Source: Thermodesulfovibrionia bacterium (GTDB taxonomy: Bacteria > Nitrospirota > Thermodesulfovibrionia > UBA6902). Taken from it: 5,501 nucleotides of DNA. Below, one piece after another: positions 1 through 5,501 of this stretch (position 1 is its first letter; every line of letters begins with the position of its first letter). The notes under the pieces were generated by a model. The model saw nothing but the letters and a program-made list of their open reading frames with translations, ran no database searches and had not been told where the DNA came from. A program made the position numbers and the translations under genes. The stretch lies in contig CAMYJJ010000199.1 in assembly GCA_947258735.1 (NCBI GenBank), forward strand, positions 1 through 5,501, read 5' to 3'.

Positions 1-534
1 TCCGAGTAACTTTGCGATTTTTTTTCCTCTGTCTGTTGCCTTCCCCCGGGTTACCTGTATGGTGCTGACAAGTTCTGCCACCAATATGGTCATAAAGCCC
101 ATGTAGCTTGATGAAGATATGAAGAACATCGAGCTTTCATTTCTGAGAAGAAAGGGGATTTTCATTGCCCGGAAGGGGTTCCCTACGTCCATCATAACGC
201 AGCCCATGGCAGCAAAAATGCTCATCAGGCCGATAAGAATTGCACGTGTCCCAACCGGATGGTAGTCATCGCGACCAAACCCGTGAATTAAAAGACCGAC
301 CATGGTCGCTCCCGCACTCAGGCCGATAAAAAAAGCCAGGCCAGATATGAATACACCCCATGGAACCATGTCACTCATATTGCTATGGTGATGTCCTTCA
401 GCAAGAGCGGTAATTGACCCCCCCAGTCCCAGAGCGCCTATAATCAGCAAAATTAAACAGTAAACATAAAATTTCCTGCTCGCGCCTGCTAAGCTATCTC
501 TGACGTGACTTATTGCGTCTTTAACAATATTCAT
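1..534 (-). CDS. NrfD/PsrC-type membrane subunit of a respiratory FeS complex (C-terminus off the window)
   Basis: Integral membrane protein of the NrfD/PsrC/DsrP-like family, which binds quinone and passes electrons to or from a periplasmic four-cluster ferredoxin subunit. The first 178 residues are visible. Hydrophobic segments lie at about 23-46, 58-86, 97-117 and 135-160. The second begins with the family-typical 'PWGVFISG', followed by 'GLSAGATMVGLL', and the third helix ends in 'DVGNPFR', matching the Gly-x-Pro region after NrfD helix 3. A short His-rich stretch (HHH, 48-50) sits in the first loop. The ATG overlaps the stop of the upstream ferredoxin gene (ATGA), and an AGAGGA ribosome site lies about 8 nt before it, so translation is probably coupled. 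The reading frame stays open to base 1; full family members are usually 300-450 residues, so more than half may be missing. Family call is firm; the exact complex (polysulfide, sulfite, nitrite or cytochrome-linked) cannot be told. Confidence 0.9.
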   Translation of the reverse strand, partial: MNIVKDAISHVRDSLAGASRKFYVYCLILLIIGALGLGGSITALAEGHHHSNMSDMVPWGVFISGLAFFIGLSAGATMVGLLIHGFGRDDYHPVGTRAILIGLMSIFAAMGCVMMDVGNPFRAMKIPFLLRNESSMFFISSSSYMGFMTILVAELVSTIQVTRGKATDRGKKIAKLLG

Positions 535-1442
535 CGCTTTAATCCTCTGATATCCGGAGAGATCGGAATTGGTTTAAACCACCGCATGGGTTTCTCTTTT
601 GGCCGGGTCAGATACCATATCTGGGGACCGGTATTCAGTCCCACCTTGAGACGGAAATATCTCTCACTCGCAATTAATTTTGAAACCGCACTGTCGGGGT
701 CATTGAGGTTTCCAAACGTCCGTGCCTTGTTCGGACAGGCCTCTACACATCTTGTGGTCCTTCCCCGTCTCGTCCGGTGCACGCAGAAGGTACATTTTTC
801 AACCACACCATCAGTGCGTATGGGAACCAGGGGGTTTACCTTATCAGCAGGTATCTCAGGTTTTGACCAGTTGAACCTTCGTGCATTGTACGGGCAGGCA
901 GCCATGCAGTATCTGCATCCGATGCACTTGTTGTAGTCCATCATGACTATGCCATCAGGACTTTTGAATGTCGCTTTCGTTGGGCAGACTTTTGTACACG
1001 GCGGATCATCGCAGTGGTTACACTGGACCGGCATATACATCCTGTCTTTACGCAATTTCGTGTACAGGAGGCCATTGCCATTTGTATGACCTTTTACCGG
1101 CAGCTTTTCATCTATTACCTGGCCGGGTTTGTATCTGGTTTCCAAGACCATTATATATGGAGGATTAATTGCGTCCGGCACATTGTTCTCCAGTTTACAG
1201 GCATAAGAGCATCGTCTGCATCCGATGCACAGGCCCAGATCTATTACCATTGCGAATTTTGCTCCGGAGATCGGAAGAGGTGTTTCTACTTCTCTTCCGA
1301 TGGTACCCTTTATACCCTGTGATATCTTTTCTACTATTCCTTCAAACAATCCCGCAGAAGCCTGTACCTGCCGGGGGATAAGAACGCCGGCTCCGGCAAC
1401 TACAGCAAGTTTGATCATCTGTCTACGATCAAATATACTCAT
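531..1442 (-). CDS. Tat-exported ferredoxin subunit with four [4Fe-4S] clusters (DmsB/NrfC/DsrO-like)
   Basis: Electron-transfer subunit of 303 residues, predicted to act on the periplasmic side with the NrfD-type protein that follows. The N-terminus carries a twin-arginine signal: DRRQMIK at 5-11, a hydrophobic run to about 22, and an A-S-A cleavage site at 28-30. Sixteen cysteines form four complete cluster sets: C72/75/78/82, C141/144/149/153, C173/176/179/183 and C217/220/232/236, with the spacing usual for this family, including the long CX2CX11CX3C set. No motif is missing. The ATG at 1442 is the only plausible start: an in-frame TGA lies four codons upstream, and the next Met (residue 9) would destroy the Tat motif. 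No clear Shine-Dalgarno precedes it; the leader is AT-rich. It is the first gene after a predicted sigma-54 promoter, so the catalytic or cytochrome partner must lie beyond the NrfD gene or elsewhere. The substrate is unknown. Confidence 0.93.
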   Translation of the reverse strand: MSIFDRRQMIKLAVVAGAGVLIPRQVQASAGLFEGIVEKISQGIKGTIGREVETPLPISGAKFAMVIDLGLCIGCRRCSYACKLENNVPDAINPPYIMVLETRYKPGQVIDEKLPVKGHTNGNGLLYTKLRKDRMYMPVQCNHCDDPPCTKVCPTKATFKSPDGIVMMDYNKCIGCRYCMAACPYNARRFNWSKPEIPADKVNPLVPIRTDGVVEKCTFCVHRTRRGRTTRCVEACPNKARTFGNLNDPDSAVSKLIASERYFRLKVGLNTGPQIWYLTRPKEKPMRWFKPIPISPDIRGLKR

Positions 1443-1516
1443 AAATAAGTATCAGATTAATAAGTAGTAAATAATGAGATCCGGATTGTTTTTTTTAAAA
1501 GACTATTTCTCTAATT

Positions 1517-1532
1517 AGCAATTTGAGTGCCC
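1517..1532 (-). promoter_or_regulatory. Sigma-54 (-24/-12) promoter of the ferredoxin/NrfD operon
   Basis: On the minus strand the sequence is GGGCACTCAAATTGCT, against the consensus TGGCACG-N4-TTGCW. The invariant GG (1531-1530) and GC (1519-1518) are present with exactly 10 bases between them. The mismatches are the leading T (here G) and the G after GGCAC (here T). Transcription would start near 1506, giving a leader of about 64 nt before the ATG at 1442. It lies in non-coding DNA directly upstream of an operon and close to two sigma-54 activator genes. Confidence 0.78.
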
Positions 1533-1572
1533 GCATTCCGATTCAGAGTCATTGCAGCTGAGTATCTCAATA

Positions 1573-1585
1573 GATCAATACGTTA
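1573..1585 (+). promoter_or_regulatory. Possible IHF-binding site between activator site and promoter
   Basis: The sequence GATCAATACGTTA matches the IHF consensus WATCAANNNNTTR except for the first base. Its centre is about 73 bp upstream of the predicted start of transcription, between the sigma-54 promoter and the nearer inverted repeat, where IHF commonly bends DNA at sigma-54 promoters. The motif is short and AT-rich and can occur by chance. Confidence 0.4.
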
Positions 1586-1626
1586 TAAAAGAGTTGGTGT
1601 CATCTGTAGTTTTTGAGCTGTTTTTT

Positions 1627-1646
1627 TTGTTACATATTCGTAACAA
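1627..1646. promoter_or_regulatory. Perfect inverted repeat TTGTTAC-N6-GTAACAA, probable activator-binding site
   Basis: Two perfect 7-bp arms (1627-1633 and 1640-1646) are separated by 6 bases. The centre is about 130 bp upstream of the predicted sigma-54 start site, within the usual range for enhancer sites of NtrC-type activators. The same GTTAC-N6-GTAAC core recurs at 3415-3430 upstream of the other sigma-54 promoter, and in a degenerate form at 1730-1748. No U-tract follows on either strand after a stable stem, so a protein site is more likely than a terminator. Which activator binds is inferred. Confidence 0.68.
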
Positions 1647-1729
1647 TACATCATTCTAGCCCCCCACTTGTTTATTGGCTAATTTAATGTTTAATTTCAG
1701 AGGACTGGATGATGTTAAGACGTTATTGA

Positions 1730-1748
1730 TTGTTACAATTCGGTAGCA
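1730..1748. promoter_or_regulatory. Second, imperfect copy of the inverted repeat (TTGTTAC-N6-GTAGCA)
   Basis: The left arm TTGTTAC is identical to that of the site at 1627. The spacer is again 6 bases, and the right arm is GTAGCA, one change from GTAACA. Its centre is 103 bp, close to ten helical turns, from the centre of the perfect copy, which would place both on the same DNA face. It lies about 233 bp upstream of the predicted start of transcription. Confidence 0.5.
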
Positions 1749-1760
1749 TTATGAGGAAAG

Positions 1761-1815
1761 AAAAAACCTGGCGTTCAGCATGGCTATGAGATGATATAAT
1801 GTGGCTGAACGCAGG
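1761..1815 (-). terminator. Intrinsic terminator of the PhoU-like/HTH/Cys-rich operon
   Basis: Arms GCGTTCAGC (1771-1779) and GCTGAACGC (1804-1812) pair over 9 bp and extend by three more pairs (CCT 1767-1769 with AGG 1813-1815) across a single bulged base. On the minus strand the stem is followed at once by TTTTTTCTTT (complement of 1757-1766), the layout expected for Rho-independent termination of minus-strand transcripts. The loop is long (24 nt). It ends the unit about 86 bases after the stop codon of the cysteine-rich gene and insulates the next promoter. Confidence 0.8.
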
Positions 1816-1901
1816 GGATTAATAGTCTGCTGCCATGCGCTGCATGTTTTTTTGAAATATTCATTTCAGCATCCTTTTATTTATATTGTCAATCAATTAA
1901 A

Positions 1902-2105
1902 TTAGAAACAGTCTGTTGGTTTCTTGATTCTTTTCGCACGACATATAAACACGGCTTCTGTTAACAGGCTGCATGCATCAACACATTTACAGAATTTACA
2001 TTTTCTATCTTTCTTATTCAGTAAACATTCAAGCATGTCAGAGATTGAATTATGAATTTCAGCTTTAATAGATGCATCATCCTTAATATCTTCCAATTCA
2101 GGCAT
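1902..2105 (-). CDS. Small cysteine-rich protein of unknown function (67 aa)
   Basis: I do not recognise the family. The 67-residue product has an acidic, helical-looking N-terminal third and seven cysteines at 27, 36, 39, 41, 45, 55 and 66. The core CKFCKCVDAC is a CX2CXCX3C cluster that could bind zinc or an iron-sulfur cluster; the C-terminus is basic (RAKRIKKP). There is no signal peptide or membrane segment, so it is probably cytoplasmic. The start is well supported by AAGGAG six bases before the ATG. The gene follows the free-standing HTH gene by 46 bp and is the last before a strong terminator, so it is probably co-transcribed with the PhoU-like and HTH genes. A redox- or metal-sensing adaptor is a possibility, not a demonstrated role. 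Confidence 0.72.
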   Translation of the reverse strand: MPELEDIKDDASIKAEIHNSISDMLECLLNKKDRKCKFCKCVDACSLLTEAVFICRAKRIKKPTDCF

Positions 2106-2151
2106 ATCTGCTCCTTATTCAAAGGTTTGTATAGGTATACAAAAAAGTTCA

Positions 2152-2340
2152 TTATGATATATCAATATCATACGACTTGATCTTCTCCCACAGAGTCTTC
2201 CTGCTTATATCCAGGATTTCAGCGGTCTTTCTCCTGTTCCCATTTGTTGATTTAAGAATTTTTATGATATGTTCTCTCTCTGCTTCAGCCGTAACTTCGT
2301 ACAGGGGTGGAAGAGGGGGGGTATCTTTATGAATTGTCAC
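2152..2340 (-). CDS. Free-standing Fis-type (HTH_8) DNA-binding protein (62 aa)
   Basis: The product is almost entirely the Fis-like helix-turn-helix found at the C-terminus of NtrC-family activators, with no receiver or AAA+ domain. Residues about 18-60 match the C-termini of both neighbouring activators: 33 of 43 aligned positions with the one ending at 5045 and 28 of 43 with the one ending at 3577 (hand count). The recognition-helix region ISRKTLWEK is identical to the former. A short proline-rich lead (PPLPP, 8-12) replaces the usual linker. The start is GTG at 2340, supported by AAAGGAG about 10 nt upstream; an in-frame TAA nine codons before it rules out a longer protein. Its own ribosome site, intact frame and operon position argue against a decayed activator. 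Such a protein could bind the same sites as the activators without contacting sigma-54. Bacterial Fis itself is larger (98 aa), so this is not Fis. Confidence 0.8.
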   Translation of the reverse strand: MTIHKDTPPLPPLYEVTAEAEREHIIKILKSTNGNRRKTAEILDISRKTLWEKIKSYDIDIS

Positions 2341-2410
2341 CGCTGTGATACTCCTTTCCCTGCGTTATATGACTTCAATACACATCACCATGAAGGCCCG
2401 GGTTATCTCA

Positions 2411-2426
2411 CTGTTTGTTGAAACAG
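2411..2426. repeat. Small hairpin CTGTTT-N4-AAACAG between the PhoU-like and HTH genes
   Basis: A perfect 6-bp inverted repeat with a 4-base loop in the 124-bp gap between the two genes. No U-tract follows on the minus strand, so it is not a classical terminator. Weak, AT-rich stem; the function is unknown. Confidence 0.3.
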
Positions 2427-2457
2427 GTTAATCTCTGCCCCGAATACTCCTTCTGCA

Positions 2458-2473
2458 GCACTGTTTACAGTGC
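2458..2473. repeat. Hairpin GCACTG-N4-CAGTGC wrapped round the stop codon of the PhoU-like gene
   Basis: Perfect 6-bp arms (2458-2463, 2468-2473) enclose a TAAA loop in the mRNA, which contains the TAA stop. With the second hairpin at 2411-2426 it could act as an intercistronic RNA-stability or processing element. No U-run follows, so transcription probably continues into the HTH gene. Confidence 0.4.
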
Positions 2474-3088
2474 GGTAAGCCTGACTGCTATTTCTTTTGA
2501 ATGCCATGCAATGCTTTTAATTGCATCAAGCATCCCCAAATATGCGGATGAAGCCGAGGCATTACATATTCCTTTGATCAGACGGTCCTCATGCAAGGTG
2601 GCGTAATCAAGAGCCATTTTACTGATCCCTATTTGAGACTCCTCGATATATATAGCGAGGAATGCATTTCTGGCGAGTATGATGTCTGCTGCCGGCGCCA
2701 TAATTTCAATCAGCCGCTGAATCAGAAATATAGACTCTCTTATGGCCTTATCAGAGAAAAGGATATTTTCATCGATCTTTTTTCCAATATGTACTGTAAG
2801 CTGTTCGACGCCGTTCACAATATTCATCACATTACCGGGAATTGGACGATACGGCATCCAGTCAGGATTATCCGTAAGATAAGCCACTGCATCATTGCCA
2901 AAGAAGTCGCCCTGTTTTCTGATGAGGCTGATATTCCTTCTGCCTTCCTGGAGAAGTTTTGAATTATGATAAATGAATGCATTCTGTAATATGGATATAC
3001 TCTCCCTTGCGCCATCCATCATCTCATACAGCGTTATCAATTCCTTATTAAGCTTTTTGTCTTTTTGTTGTAATTCGGTGTTGATCAT
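2465..3088 (-). CDS. PhoU-like helical protein (207 aa)
   Basis: An all-helical cytoplasmic protein without signal peptide or membrane segments. The C-terminal quarter (about residues 157-207 from this start) has the pattern of PhoU domains: aromatic, then His-x-x-Arg-Leu-x-x-Gly, a short turn, then Leu-x-x-(Ile/Leu)-x-x-Ala-x-His-(Ser)-x-x-(Ile)-Ala, seen here as HEDRLIKG and IAWHSKEIA. PhoU proteins bind metal ions and regulate phosphate uptake or signalling partners. The usual acidic metal ligands (E/DxxxD) are not obvious, so the role may have diverged. I chose ATG 3088 over an upstream in-frame ATG at 3124 because AAGGAGA lies 8 nt before it, while nothing resembling a ribosome site precedes the longer form. 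No phosphate transport (pst) genes are visible. It is the first gene after a sigma-54 promoter and heads an operon with the HTH and cysteine-rich genes. The PhoU assignment rests on a remembered motif, not a search. Confidence 0.7.
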   Translation of the reverse strand: MINTELQQKDKKLNKELITLYEMMDGARESISILQNAFIYHNSKLLQEGRRNISLIRKQGDFFGNDAVAYLTDNPDWMPYRPIPGNVMNIVNGVEQLTVHIGKKIDENILFSDKAIRESIFLIQRLIEIMAPAADIILARNAFLAIYIEESQIGISKMALDYATLHEDRLIKGICNASASSAYLGMLDAIKSIAWHSKEIAVRLTAL

Positions 3089-3198
3089 AGAGTCTCTCCT
3101 TTCAATAAAAGAAACTGCAGGCATGGAAATGAAATGTTCAGCCCTTCTTCCTGCAGCAGGATTGTTTATGCATAATGTTCATTTACAAAATTATGTAT

Positions 3199-3214
3199 TG
3201 CAAGTTAAATGCCA
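3199..3214 (-). promoter_or_regulatory. Sigma-54 (-24/-12) promoter of the PhoU-like operon
   Basis: On the minus strand the sequence is TGGCATTTAACTTGCA. It matches TGGCAY-N5-TTGCW completely, with the GG (3213-3212) and GC (3201-3200) pairs 10 bases apart. Transcription would start near 3188, about 100 nt before the ATG at 3088. This is the better of the two sigma-54 boxes in the window. Confidence 0.82.
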
Positions 3215-3243
3215 TATGCACTCTGTGAGTTGTAAAAGTGTAA

Positions 3244-3281
3244 AGGATACATAAAAACAGGAAGTTCCATTAATGTATCCT
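3244..3281. repeat. 9-bp dyad (AGGATACAT...ATGTATCCT) between activator site and promoter
   Basis: Perfect 9-bp arms at 3244-3252 and 3273-3281 with a 20-base spacer. Inside lies a smaller, nearly concentric palindrome, GGAA-g-TTCC (3260-3268). The centre is about 75 bp upstream of the predicted sigma-54 start, between the promoter and the GTTAC cluster. It could be an operator for a second regulator or fold as a nested hairpin; no U-tract suggests a terminator. Confidence 0.5.
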
Positions 3282-3408
3282 GATGATCTGGAATTACTGC
3301 ATTTCAAGCGCTGCTATTCCAATTCTGATCATGTTATCTCCCTATCTCATTGAATCTAAGATAAAATGGTGAGGCAATTCCTGAGAAACAAAGAATGGCT
3401 ACTTTCAG

Positions 3409-3445
3409 GTTACAGTTACTGTTTGGTAACGTTGTGCAGGGTAAC
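3409..3445. promoter_or_regulatory. Cluster of GTTAC/GTAAC half-sites, probable activator-binding region
   Basis: Four half-sites occur in 37 bp: GTTAC at 3409-3413 and 3415-3419, GTAAC at 3426-3430 and 3441-3445. The pair 3415-3419/3426-3430 forms GTTAC-N6-GTAAC, the same core and spacing as the perfect repeat at 1627-1646. Its centre is about 234 bp upstream of the predicted sigma-54 start for the PhoU-like operon. CAGTTAC (3413-3419) and GTAACTG (3441-3447) also pair as a wider 7-bp inverted repeat. Recurrence upstream of two sigma-54 promoters suggests one shared activator. Confidence 0.62.
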
Positions 3446-3576: not shown

Positions 3577-4923
3577 TCAGGTCTTAATATTGTAGTTTTT
3601 TAGTTTCTCCCACAGGTTTTTTCTGCTGATGTTGAGTATGACAGCGGCTTTTGTCCTGTTACCCTTTGTTGCTTTTAATACTTTTATTATGTGTGCCTTC
3701 TCTGCCTCTGACGCAACTGCTGAAAGAGTATCCCGGGCAGGTCCTTTTTGCTTCCCCAGAATATGTGACGGGAGAGCATTGAGAGGAATCGTGTCTTTTA
3801 CTGAAAGTGTTACACATCGTTCCAGAATATTTTCAAGTTCTCTTACATTTCCGGGGAATTCATATTCCAGCAGTGCCTGAATCACGTCAGGGTGCAGTAC
3901 AGCCTTTCTGCCAGATCTGCAATTATGAATATCAAGAAAATGATCAATAAGGATGGGGATATCATCTCTCCGTTCCCTGAGAGCGGGTATGTGAACAGGA
4001 ATAACATTCAATCGGTAATAGAGATCTTCCCTGAATCTCCCATTTTTCATGTCCTGTTCCAAGTCCCTGTTCGTAGCCGTAATCACTCTCACATCGACGT
4101 TCCGCATCTCTGTCCCTCCCAGTCGTTCGAAAGACCCGTCCTGCAGCACCCTGAGGAGTTTTGCCTGAACAGAAGGCGGCAGGTCACCTATCTCGTCAAG
4201 AAAGATTGTTCCTTCATGAGCACGGTCAAATCTGCCCGGCTTTCTCTGGGCTGCCCCTGTAAAGGCCCCTTTTTCATATCCAAAGAGTTCACTTTCAACG
4301 AGGTCTTCCGGAAAAGCTGCGCAATTAACCTTTATCAACGGAGCATTCTTGCGTGTACTTTGCTGGTGTATCGCTGTTGCAACCAGTTCTTTACCTGTAC
4401 CGCTTTCTCCAAGAATAAGAATTGAAGAATTGTTTTTCGATATTTGCTTGATGAGGTCATATATGTTCATCATCTCTTTACTGACACCGACTATATTGGG
4501 GTAACCATGGCAGTCAGACCTGTCCTTTCGAATTCCGGCATTTCCCTCTTGCAGTTTCCTGGCCTGAAGGGCTTTCTGTATCACAAGAATGAGCTCTTCC
4601 ATTGAAAACGGTTTAGTTATGTAATCAAAAGCACCGAGTTTCATCACACTGACTGCAGATTGAATGGAAGCATATGCGGTGATGATGATGACTGTTATGG
4701 AAGGATCAATGCCCTTCAATTCCCGTAATATCTCCATCCCGTCCTTTTTGGGCATCTTCAGATCCACCATAACGAGATCAGGCTTTTCCTGTCTGAACAG
4801 TTTCAGTGCCTCGGAGGGATTATCAGAGGTTATACAGGTAAAGTGATGTTGATCGAGGATGCGTGAACAGCTATCCAGGAGGTCCTTTTCGTCATCGATT
4901 ATTAATATCTTTCCACTGCTCAT
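3577..4923 (-). CDS. NtrC-family sigma-54-dependent response regulator (448 aa)
   Basis: Complete three-domain activator. The receiver (about 5-118) has acidic D10/D11, phosphoacceptor D54 in VMVDLKMP, T82 and K104. The AAA+ domain (about 143-365) has Walker A GESGTGKE (172-179), the sigma-54-contacting GAFTGA loop (219-224), Walker B TIFLDEIGD (239-247), sensor I ATNRD, the [11 protein letters not shown] arginine-finger region and sensor [11 protein letters not shown]. The Fis-type HTH lies at about 405-445. Every motif needed for phosphorylation-controlled, ATP-driven opening of sigma-54 promoters is intact, and length is normal for the family. The ATG at 4923 begins directly at the receiver; its ribosome site is weak (AGAGAAAG, rather far upstream). 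No sensor kinase is present, so the signal is unknown. A paralogous activator ends 121 bp upstream. The sigma-54 promoters and shared inverted repeats downstream make it a prime candidate to control them. Confidence 0.95.
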   Translation of the reverse strand: MSSGKILIIDDEKDLLDSCSRILDQHHFTCITSDNPSEALKLFRQEKPDLVMVDLKMPKKDGMEILRELKGIDPSITVIIITAYASIQSAVSVMKLGAFDYITKPFSMEELILVIQKALQARKLQEGNAGIRKDRSDCHGYPNIVGVSKEMMNIYDLIKQISKNNSSILILGESGTGKELVATAIHQQSTRKNAPLIKVNCAAFPEDLVESELFGYEKGAFTGAAQRKPGRFDRAHEGTIFLDEIGDLPPSVQAKLLRVLQDGSFERLGGTEMRNVDVRVITATNRDLEQDMKNGRFREDLYYRLNVIPVHIPALRERRDDIPILIDHFLDIHNCRSGRKAVLHPDVIQALLEYEFPGNVRELENILERCVTLSVKDTIPLNALPSHILGKQKGPARDTLSAVASEAEKAHIIKVLKATKGNRTKAAVILNISRKNLWEKLKNYNIKT

Positions 4924-5044: not shown

Positions 5045-5501
5045 CTAATGTTTGATGTCGTAGACCTTTGTTTTCTCCCACAGGGTCTTTCTGCTGATGC
5101 CCAGAATTTCAGCGGCCTTTGTTTTGTTCCCCCTTGTTGATCTCAATATTTTAATTATATGTTCCTTCTCGGCCTCAGCCGCAGTAGCTGAAAGGGTCGA
5201 TATGGAAGATACATTTTTCTGGACGTTCACGATATGCGAAGGAAGGTGTTCTATTGTAACAAAATCCCCTGTTGCAAGCGCAACGCACCTCTCTATAATA
5301 TTTTCCAGTTCCCTTACATTACCGGGAAAATCATAATTTATTAATTCACTGATTGCATCAGCGTCCATTTTGATCCTTTTGCCAAATCTGCAATTATATG
5401 TATCCATAAAATGATCAATAAGAAGGGGGATATCGTCCTTCCGTTCCCTGAGCGCAGGCATATATACAGGAATAACATTCAGTCTGTAATAGAGATCTTC
5501 C
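5045..5501 (-). CDS. Second NtrC-type sigma-54 activator, C-terminal part only (start off the window)
   Basis: The last 151 residues are visible. The frame is open through the window edge and begins [13 protein letters not shown], the arginine-finger region of the AAA+ domain, so the gene extends upstream of any internal Met. It continues through [11 protein letters not shown] and sensor [12 protein letters not shown] to a Fis-type HTH (about the last 45 residues), ending YDIKH. It is clearly paralogous to the 448-residue activator just downstream and equally close to the free-standing 62-residue HTH protein. The N-terminal half, probably a receiver or other sensor domain, cannot be seen. The gap to the next gene is 121 bp, and no terminator is apparent there, so the two may be co-transcribed. 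Confidence 0.93.

Follow-up and report, generated by a model that had tools for sequence, protein, structure and literature searches.

The stretch analysed here, called the window below, comprises 5,501 nucleotides of a Thermodesulfovibrionia bacterium (contig CAMYJJ010000199.1 of assembly GCA_947258735.1) and carries on its minus strand the gene of a free-standing Fis/NtrC-type HTH protein of 62 aa (2152..2340), named FS in the following and recognized by an open ORF, an HTH_8 match and a structural model. FS would be a regulator in its own right, a separately encoded DNA-binding domain of the kind carried by the local sigma-54 activators. The explanation we prefer, and which we consider about equally apt to prove right or wrong, is that of an activator-induced competitor for the enhancers which exerts negative feedback; an architectural helper is its main rival. 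The wider claim, that Thermodesulfovibrionia possess in FS a bacterial equivalent of the DNA-binding microProteins, i.e., a separate gene behind the activator's enhancers providing dedicated negative feedback by ATPase-less enhancer occupancy, is put forward tentatively, with a chance slightly short of even.

The ORF of FS is uninterrupted, starts with GTG and is preceded by a GGAG ribosome site 10 bases 5' of the start. Of the Pfam families, only HTH_8, the DNA-binding domain of sigma-54 enhancer-binding proteins, exceeds its cut-off (52.7 bits versus 22, E 3.4e-14), and the AAA+ sigma-54 interaction domain of such activators was not matched by Pfam. Thus, the first-pass annotation, which had described a Fis-type domain by itself, provided with a ribosome site and without ATPase, was borne out. 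Like a microProtein, FS is a single-domain relative of a multi-domain regulator and is kept near the presumed target genes (four of five genomes).

On the minus strand, the order of transcription is partial sigma-54 response regulator, full sigma-54 response regulator, PhoU-like gene, FS, 67-residue Cys-rich protein, DsrO-like gene and NrfD-like gene. The partial regulator (5045..5500) is cut by the window end, leaving its C-terminal part with lid and HTH_8, and the full one (3577..4923) consists of receiver, AAA+ and HTH_8 (both by Pfam). The two are 63% identical over 150 residues and have nearly the same recognition helices. The gene preceding FS (2465..3088) encodes a protein of 207 aa without Pfam match, labeled PhoU-like after the name 'Na+/phosphate symporter' given in some sources; its ORF could begin at 3124, and the start is at 3088 in the closest relatives. 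Members of this family occur at many loci of Nitrospirota, and in G001 and G002, too, a sigma-54 box and site(s) precede the gene. By the named relatives of its PhoU-like protein, the window belongs near Thermodesulfovibrionia and other Nitrospirota. The Cys-rich protein of 67 aa (1902..2105) has no Pfam or NCBIfam match. The presumed target operon begins with the gene of the DsrO-like iron-sulphur subunit (531..1442; NF045797 with 214.9 bits, cut-off 200), followed by that of an NrfD-like membrane subunit cut by the window end (1..534; 47.7 bits, cut-off 25.8). In the relative G001, the presumed operon encodes the DsrO-like protein, NrfD, two multihaem-cytochrome-type proteins, a TAT-signal iron-sulphur protein and a molybdopterin oxidoreductase; for the window, G002, G004 and G014, the DNA in hand ends short of the molybdopterin gene. 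Ahead of the G001 operon, at 3028-7731 of L090, a phosphonate-type binding protein, a histidine kinase and a response regulator are encoded, an order which we take to resemble tetrathionate sensor systems. By eye, this binding protein has a C-terminal CxxxCH string.

A box scan predicted one sigma-54 box before the PhoU-like gene and FS (3199..3214, minus strand, TGGCATTTAACTTGCA) and one before the DsrO-like gene (1517..1532, minus strand, GGGCACTCAAATTGCT). Three enhancer-like, unstranded palindromes of the form TGTTAC-N6-GTAACA (≤ 2 mismatches) were found in the window versus 0.13 expected, a number reached in 0 of 200 shuffles. The weakest of them (AGTTACTGTTTGGTAACG, 3414..3431, two mismatches) has its centre at a distance of 209.5 bp to the GG in the 3214 box. 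The DsrO-like promoter has a proximal site without mismatch at 105.5 bp from the GG (TGTTACATATTCGTAACA, 1628..1645) and a distal one with one mismatch at 208.5 bp (1731..1748), the latter being absent from the first-pass annotation. An FS operon with a sigma-54 promoter and shared sites had been claimed there, in agreement with the box at 3214-3199 (-) and the three palindromes. In the gap of 124 bases that separates FS from the PhoU-like gene, there is no box at the cut-off and no site, and a simple scan of the minus strand from 1443 to 3300 gave no terminator-like hairpin. FS of the window would be served by the box of the PhoU-like gene, with one weak site at 209.5 bp.

In all five relatives with FS, a sigma-54 box and site(s) are located directly before FS, as before the DsrO-like gene, which strengthens the feedback idea. 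At the seven DsrO-like promoters (window, G001, G002, G004, G006, G014 and G034), the site centres are, measured from the GG, at 95.5 or 105.5 bp and at 195.5-197.5 or 208.5-210.5 bp. The distances at the FS promoters are 95.5/198.5 (G001), 106.5/209.5 (G014, G004), 106.5/136.5 (G002) and, for a single site, 127.5 (G006), i.e., three of the five have the DsrO-like geometry. Pairs of enhancer-like sites with a spacing of about 100-105 bp, the proximal one being about 95 or 106 bp away from the box, recur (1517-1748 of the window; L090, L091, L121, L122, L179, L196), and the same long-spaced pairs occur also in genomes without FS. Judged by mismatches, the sites of FS promoters are not consistently weaker than those of DsrO-like promoters; therefore, there is no sequence sign of late FS induction. 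With regard to a possible origin of the FS promoter by a duplication of the DsrO-like one, alignments of DsrO-like promoters gave z values of 20-60 within genome groups and -0.4 to 14 between groups. Among FS promoters, the alignment is poor (z -0.7 to 3.5), and between FS and DsrO-like promoters it ranges from absent to moderate (z up to ~10, partly from the shared sites).

Sites with ≤ 1 mismatch accumulate near the locus. In G001, a span of ~9 kb contains 7 of the 13 sites, and in G014 a single 14-kb contig contains 7 of 14. The numbers are 6 of 12 for G004 (a span of 2.3 kb), 4 of 13 for G002 (3.1 kb) and 3 of 7 for G003 (~7.5 kb), while in G006 the two contigs with FS and the DsrO-like gene account for 4 of 6. 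The clustered sites are often paired, in front of sigma-54 boxes. Genome-wide, 13, 13, 7, 12, 6 and 14 sites in G001, G002, G003, G004, G006 and G014 compare to 7, 6, 6, 13, 4 and 6 for the reversed pattern and to 5, 10, 11, 7, 5 and 5 for another palindrome. This excess is modest and not seen in every genome; the signal is the clustering at the locus and the position before sigma-54 boxes, from which we infer that the response regulators bind these palindromes.

For the analysis of distances, the PhoU-like promoter of the window and G034 were added, and the promoter of the 67-aa gene in G001 (94.5, 222.5), L121 9801 (+), L092 11563, L171, L174 and L175 were left out; some of the latter box/site combinations are without a fitting gene, hence, chance combinations occur. 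The distances fall into the classes 95.5 or 105.5-108.5 and 195.5-198.5 or 207.5-210.5, the others being 127.5, 136.5 and 149.5. Although their periodicity was reached by 0 of 5000 random sets, helical phasing is only suggestive, because orthologous promoters do not represent independent cases and the best period differs between all 33 sites (11.4) and the 16 distinct distances (10.2). In G004, the longest FS frame runs through the sigma-54 box, which is translated as GTQIA close to the N-terminus; since the box falls inside this frame, the true start probably lies further downstream in it. A box-encodable string opens 10 of 90 FS proteins, G004 among them, whereby the boxes of the nine metagenomic proteins were deduced from protein letters.

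The residues S46-R47-K48 and L50-W51-E52-K53 of the recognition helix are invariant across an alignment of 20 rows, which includes both response regulators of the window. As proposed at first pass, the helix is nearly identical to that of the neighbouring activators, the difference being an N in the full regulator at the position of T49 in FS. FS of G004 has LWKK instead of the LWEK seen in that alignment. In a larger set, E52 is replaced by K in 6 of 103 FS rows, four of which represent the same G004 place. The FS core for these 103 rows was cut by a pattern itself demanding a recognition-helix match; therefore, invariance was taken from the 20-row alignment. The AF2 model of FS (mean pLDDT 81) has three helices (12-31, 36-43 and 47-57) and no helix N-terminal of residue 12, i.e., helix A is absent. 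Superposition on the DNA-binding domains of NtrC1 and NtrC4 gave TM-scores by query of 0.66-0.78. Given the activators' recognition helix and this match of the model, the simplest inference is that FS would bind the same palindromes as the activators. According to the accessible part of the source, isolated DNA-binding domains without helix A are monomeric off DNA, and values for such domains range from a Kd of 20 uM (NifA) to low nM binding (NtrC1) (PMC10590331). Together with the missing helix A of the model, this argues for FS dimers formed on DNA.

The fold also bears on the main rival, a Fis-like architectural helper, which would bind the palindrome or a nearby degenerate site, bend the DNA and aid contact between activator and promoter in a positive feed-forward; we regard this as unlikely, albeit far from negligible. 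The model of FS matches Fis chains with a TM-score by query of ~0.7 and an rmsd of ~1.2 over 49 columns (several rows), and it shows the HTH fold of the C-terminal half of Fis. Fis structures rank first in the Foldseek search, though with E-values of 0.03 or more and 0 matches at E 0.001. In the accessible part of a study on NinH of phage lambda, this free-standing Fis-like protein binds and bends DNA, and Fis is a bending protein, too (PMC7166090). The spacing of 100-105 bp between paired enhancer-like sites at many promoters suggests that DNA shape may matter. However, G003 and G034 have equal long-spaced pairs without FS, and FS is shorter than Fis and reaches 28.7 bits with the Fis model PRK00430, below the cut-off of 99. 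Furthermore, competition is a direct consequence of shared sites, whereas a helper needs an added property, e.g., bending. We give little credence to a mode of action via mixed dimers, in which one FS and one activator chain per palindrome would alter the assembly of the oligomer. The cores of FS and activator domains are nearly alike, which speaks for it, but the model is without helix A and such isolated domains are monomeric off DNA in the text available (PMC10590331). This weakens stable mixed dimers in solution and leaves competition on DNA unaffected.

The distribution of FS was determined in 150 relatives of G001, taken as one set for the FS and the DsrO-like search (identical genome selection). 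Some FS match at E 1e-10 was obtained in 42 genomes, with a frame of < 130 residues in five of them (G001, G002, G004, G006 and G014). A DsrO-like match at E 1e-80 was present in 14 of the 150, six of which (G034 and the five genomes just named) have an identity of ≥ 73%. FS is present in five of these six genomes and was not found at E 1e-10 in the remaining 144, numbers which are not readable as a probability because related genomes are not independent. The sixth genome, G034, possesses the operon, the response regulator and the site pair, and has no FS. The other eight DsrO-like genomes have 60-68% identity, and no TGTTAC-N6-GTAACA site with ≤ 1 mismatch was present at seven loci of these eight (G020 not among them). 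In a second per-genome scoring (≤ 14 candidates per genome), at least four frames of < 130 aa were among the matches listed (G001, G006, G161 and G080). As FS is missing from G034 and G003, in which the enhancer architecture is present, it is an accessory of the circuit.

Conservation of the gene beside such operons, which the first-pass annotation had suggested to check, was found: FS and the DsrO-like gene share a contig in four of the five genomes. FS is situated upstream of the DsrO-like gene in G001, G004 and G014; the order in G002 is response regulator, FS, 67-residue gene and, further on, the DsrO-like gene. In G006, FS comes after a response regulator at the end of one contig, and a different contig carries the DsrO-like gene. 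A homologue of the 67-aa protein adjoins FS in G002 (69%), weaker ones are encoded 0.8-1.3 kb from FS in G004 and G001 and ~7 kb off on the same contig in G014; in G006, the homologue is on a different contig from FS, and none was found in G003.

At E 0.001 or better, FS has matches in 17 short proteins, the entry of the window itself not counted. Inspected by eye, one of them (P0019) resembles the end of a complete regulator, and the rest have N-termini unlike the lid of activators. In a profile search, 2625 of 7998 scored candidates were short matches, and similar short proteins are found in metagenomes. Most of 54 fetched proteins start with Met and have tails of their own; some originate from short contigs, hence, a truncated frame is possible in individual cases. 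The FS sets for the 103-row alignment and the tail analysis consisted of the 120 listed of the 2625 matches, earlier matches and the loci, filtered by length, first residue and lid-like N-terminus; a few regulator ends passed. An NHKDP-like string occurs in 18 of 90 FS tails versus 0 of 39 activator linkers, whereby whole tails were compared with only the last 16 residues of the linkers. A tree over 47 columns, which bears on a possible single origin of FS and is built from 142 rows (repeats included), has four starred branches and 12 label changes compared to 33.6 in shuffles. Tails of several kinds may indicate differing functions, and palindrome matches exist also elsewhere in the genomes. 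Both would suit a separate small transcription factor for other targets or sites that is merely made by this regulon, which is improbable, as the recognition residues are those of the local activators and FS is linked to the DsrO-like operon in four of five genomes.

Substitutions in FS were counted with NG86 over 47 codons. The two pairs with the lowest dS, window versus G014 (dN 0.149, dS 1.03) and G001 versus G014 (dN 0.102, dS 0.74), have a dN/dS of ~0.14; in the other 13 pairs, dS is ≥ 1.2 or not computable (6 of 15 pairs). Differences at third positions are ~2.5 to 6.5 times as frequent as those at second positions in 15 of 15 pairs. These values are signs of purifying selection. A gene intact in no relative and under no purifying selection had been considered fatal to the first-pass proposal; instead, FS is intact in five of 150 genomes with the dN/dS given above. 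It is, therefore, very improbable that FS is a remnant in decay, left by the duplication of a response regulator: similarity to activator C-termini is high, few short frames exist outside the FS group and a few of the 90 short proteins (P0217, P0226, perhaps P0235) resemble regulator ends, but the frame is open in five genomes and the window, many distinct metagenomic homologues start with Met, selection has left signs and a sigma-54 box with site(s) lies ahead of FS.

In the preferred explanation of FS as a competitor, the phosphorylated response regulator would fire the sigma-54 promoters, whereupon FS would be made as well. FS would pair on the TGTTAC-N6-GTAACA palindromes and displace or dilute the activator at the paired enhancers. 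Bound FS would be unable to open the promoter because it has no ATPase, and its gene, being behind the activator's kind of promoter, would be a feedback element. As a result, the output of the respiratory operon would be capped and shut-off would be faster. In favour of such a brake we count the sole HTH_8 domain, conservation, linkage, upstream boxes and sites, the matching helix, low dN/dS and own tails; against it, the paired enhancers of G034 and G003, where the circuit does without FS, the lack of consistently weaker FS promoters, LWKK in G004 and the helix A missing from the model. Of the decoy or brake proposed initially, the bare domain, helix, promoter, shared sites and conservation with signs of selection stand; binding to the sites and the negative sign of the effect are putative.

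As far as is known, control of sigma-54 activators is exerted mostly on the ATPase or the sensor. If true, a conserved, regulon-encoded enhancer occupant would represent a different control point for these activators in a compact circuit, with the regulator gene and the presumed target under one promoter kind. It would also show an NtrC-type domain turning into an independent regulator, a step proposed for the origin of Fis. Fis is said to descend from NtrC, as reportedly claimed in a title by Morett and Bork in 1998. Like FS, it is a free-standing HTH of the NtrC C-terminal family; in contrast, FS is shorter, far under the Fis cut-off, linked to one operon and equipped with the recognition helix of local activators. 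To our knowledge, limited to the portions of the literature available, neither Fis nor NinH is a regulon-bound copy of a local activator's domain. NinH of phage lambda is, similar to FS, a small free-standing Fis-like DNA-binding protein, but is a phage gene with a degenerate G-N13-C preference, and no link to activator enhancers is described in the accessible part of the source (PMC7166090). A published classification of sigma-54 activators includes types without sensor or without DNA-binding domain, all of which, in the section available, retain the central domain (PMC3162934). No system of the FS form was described among the literature matches listed, in which subscription papers are thinly covered and sources partly accessible. 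The isolated DNA-binding domains of NtrC1 (4l5e) and NtrC4 (4fth) have the same domain and fold as FS, whereas NtrC-family enhancer-binding proteins carry a receiver and an AAA+ ATPase, both of which FS is without. Eukaryotic microProteins are single-domain relatives of multi-domain factors and compete with them. FS resembles them as a single-domain relative and putative competitor of a multi-domain factor, and differs in that its putative competition would proceed via DNA binding at bacterial enhancers.
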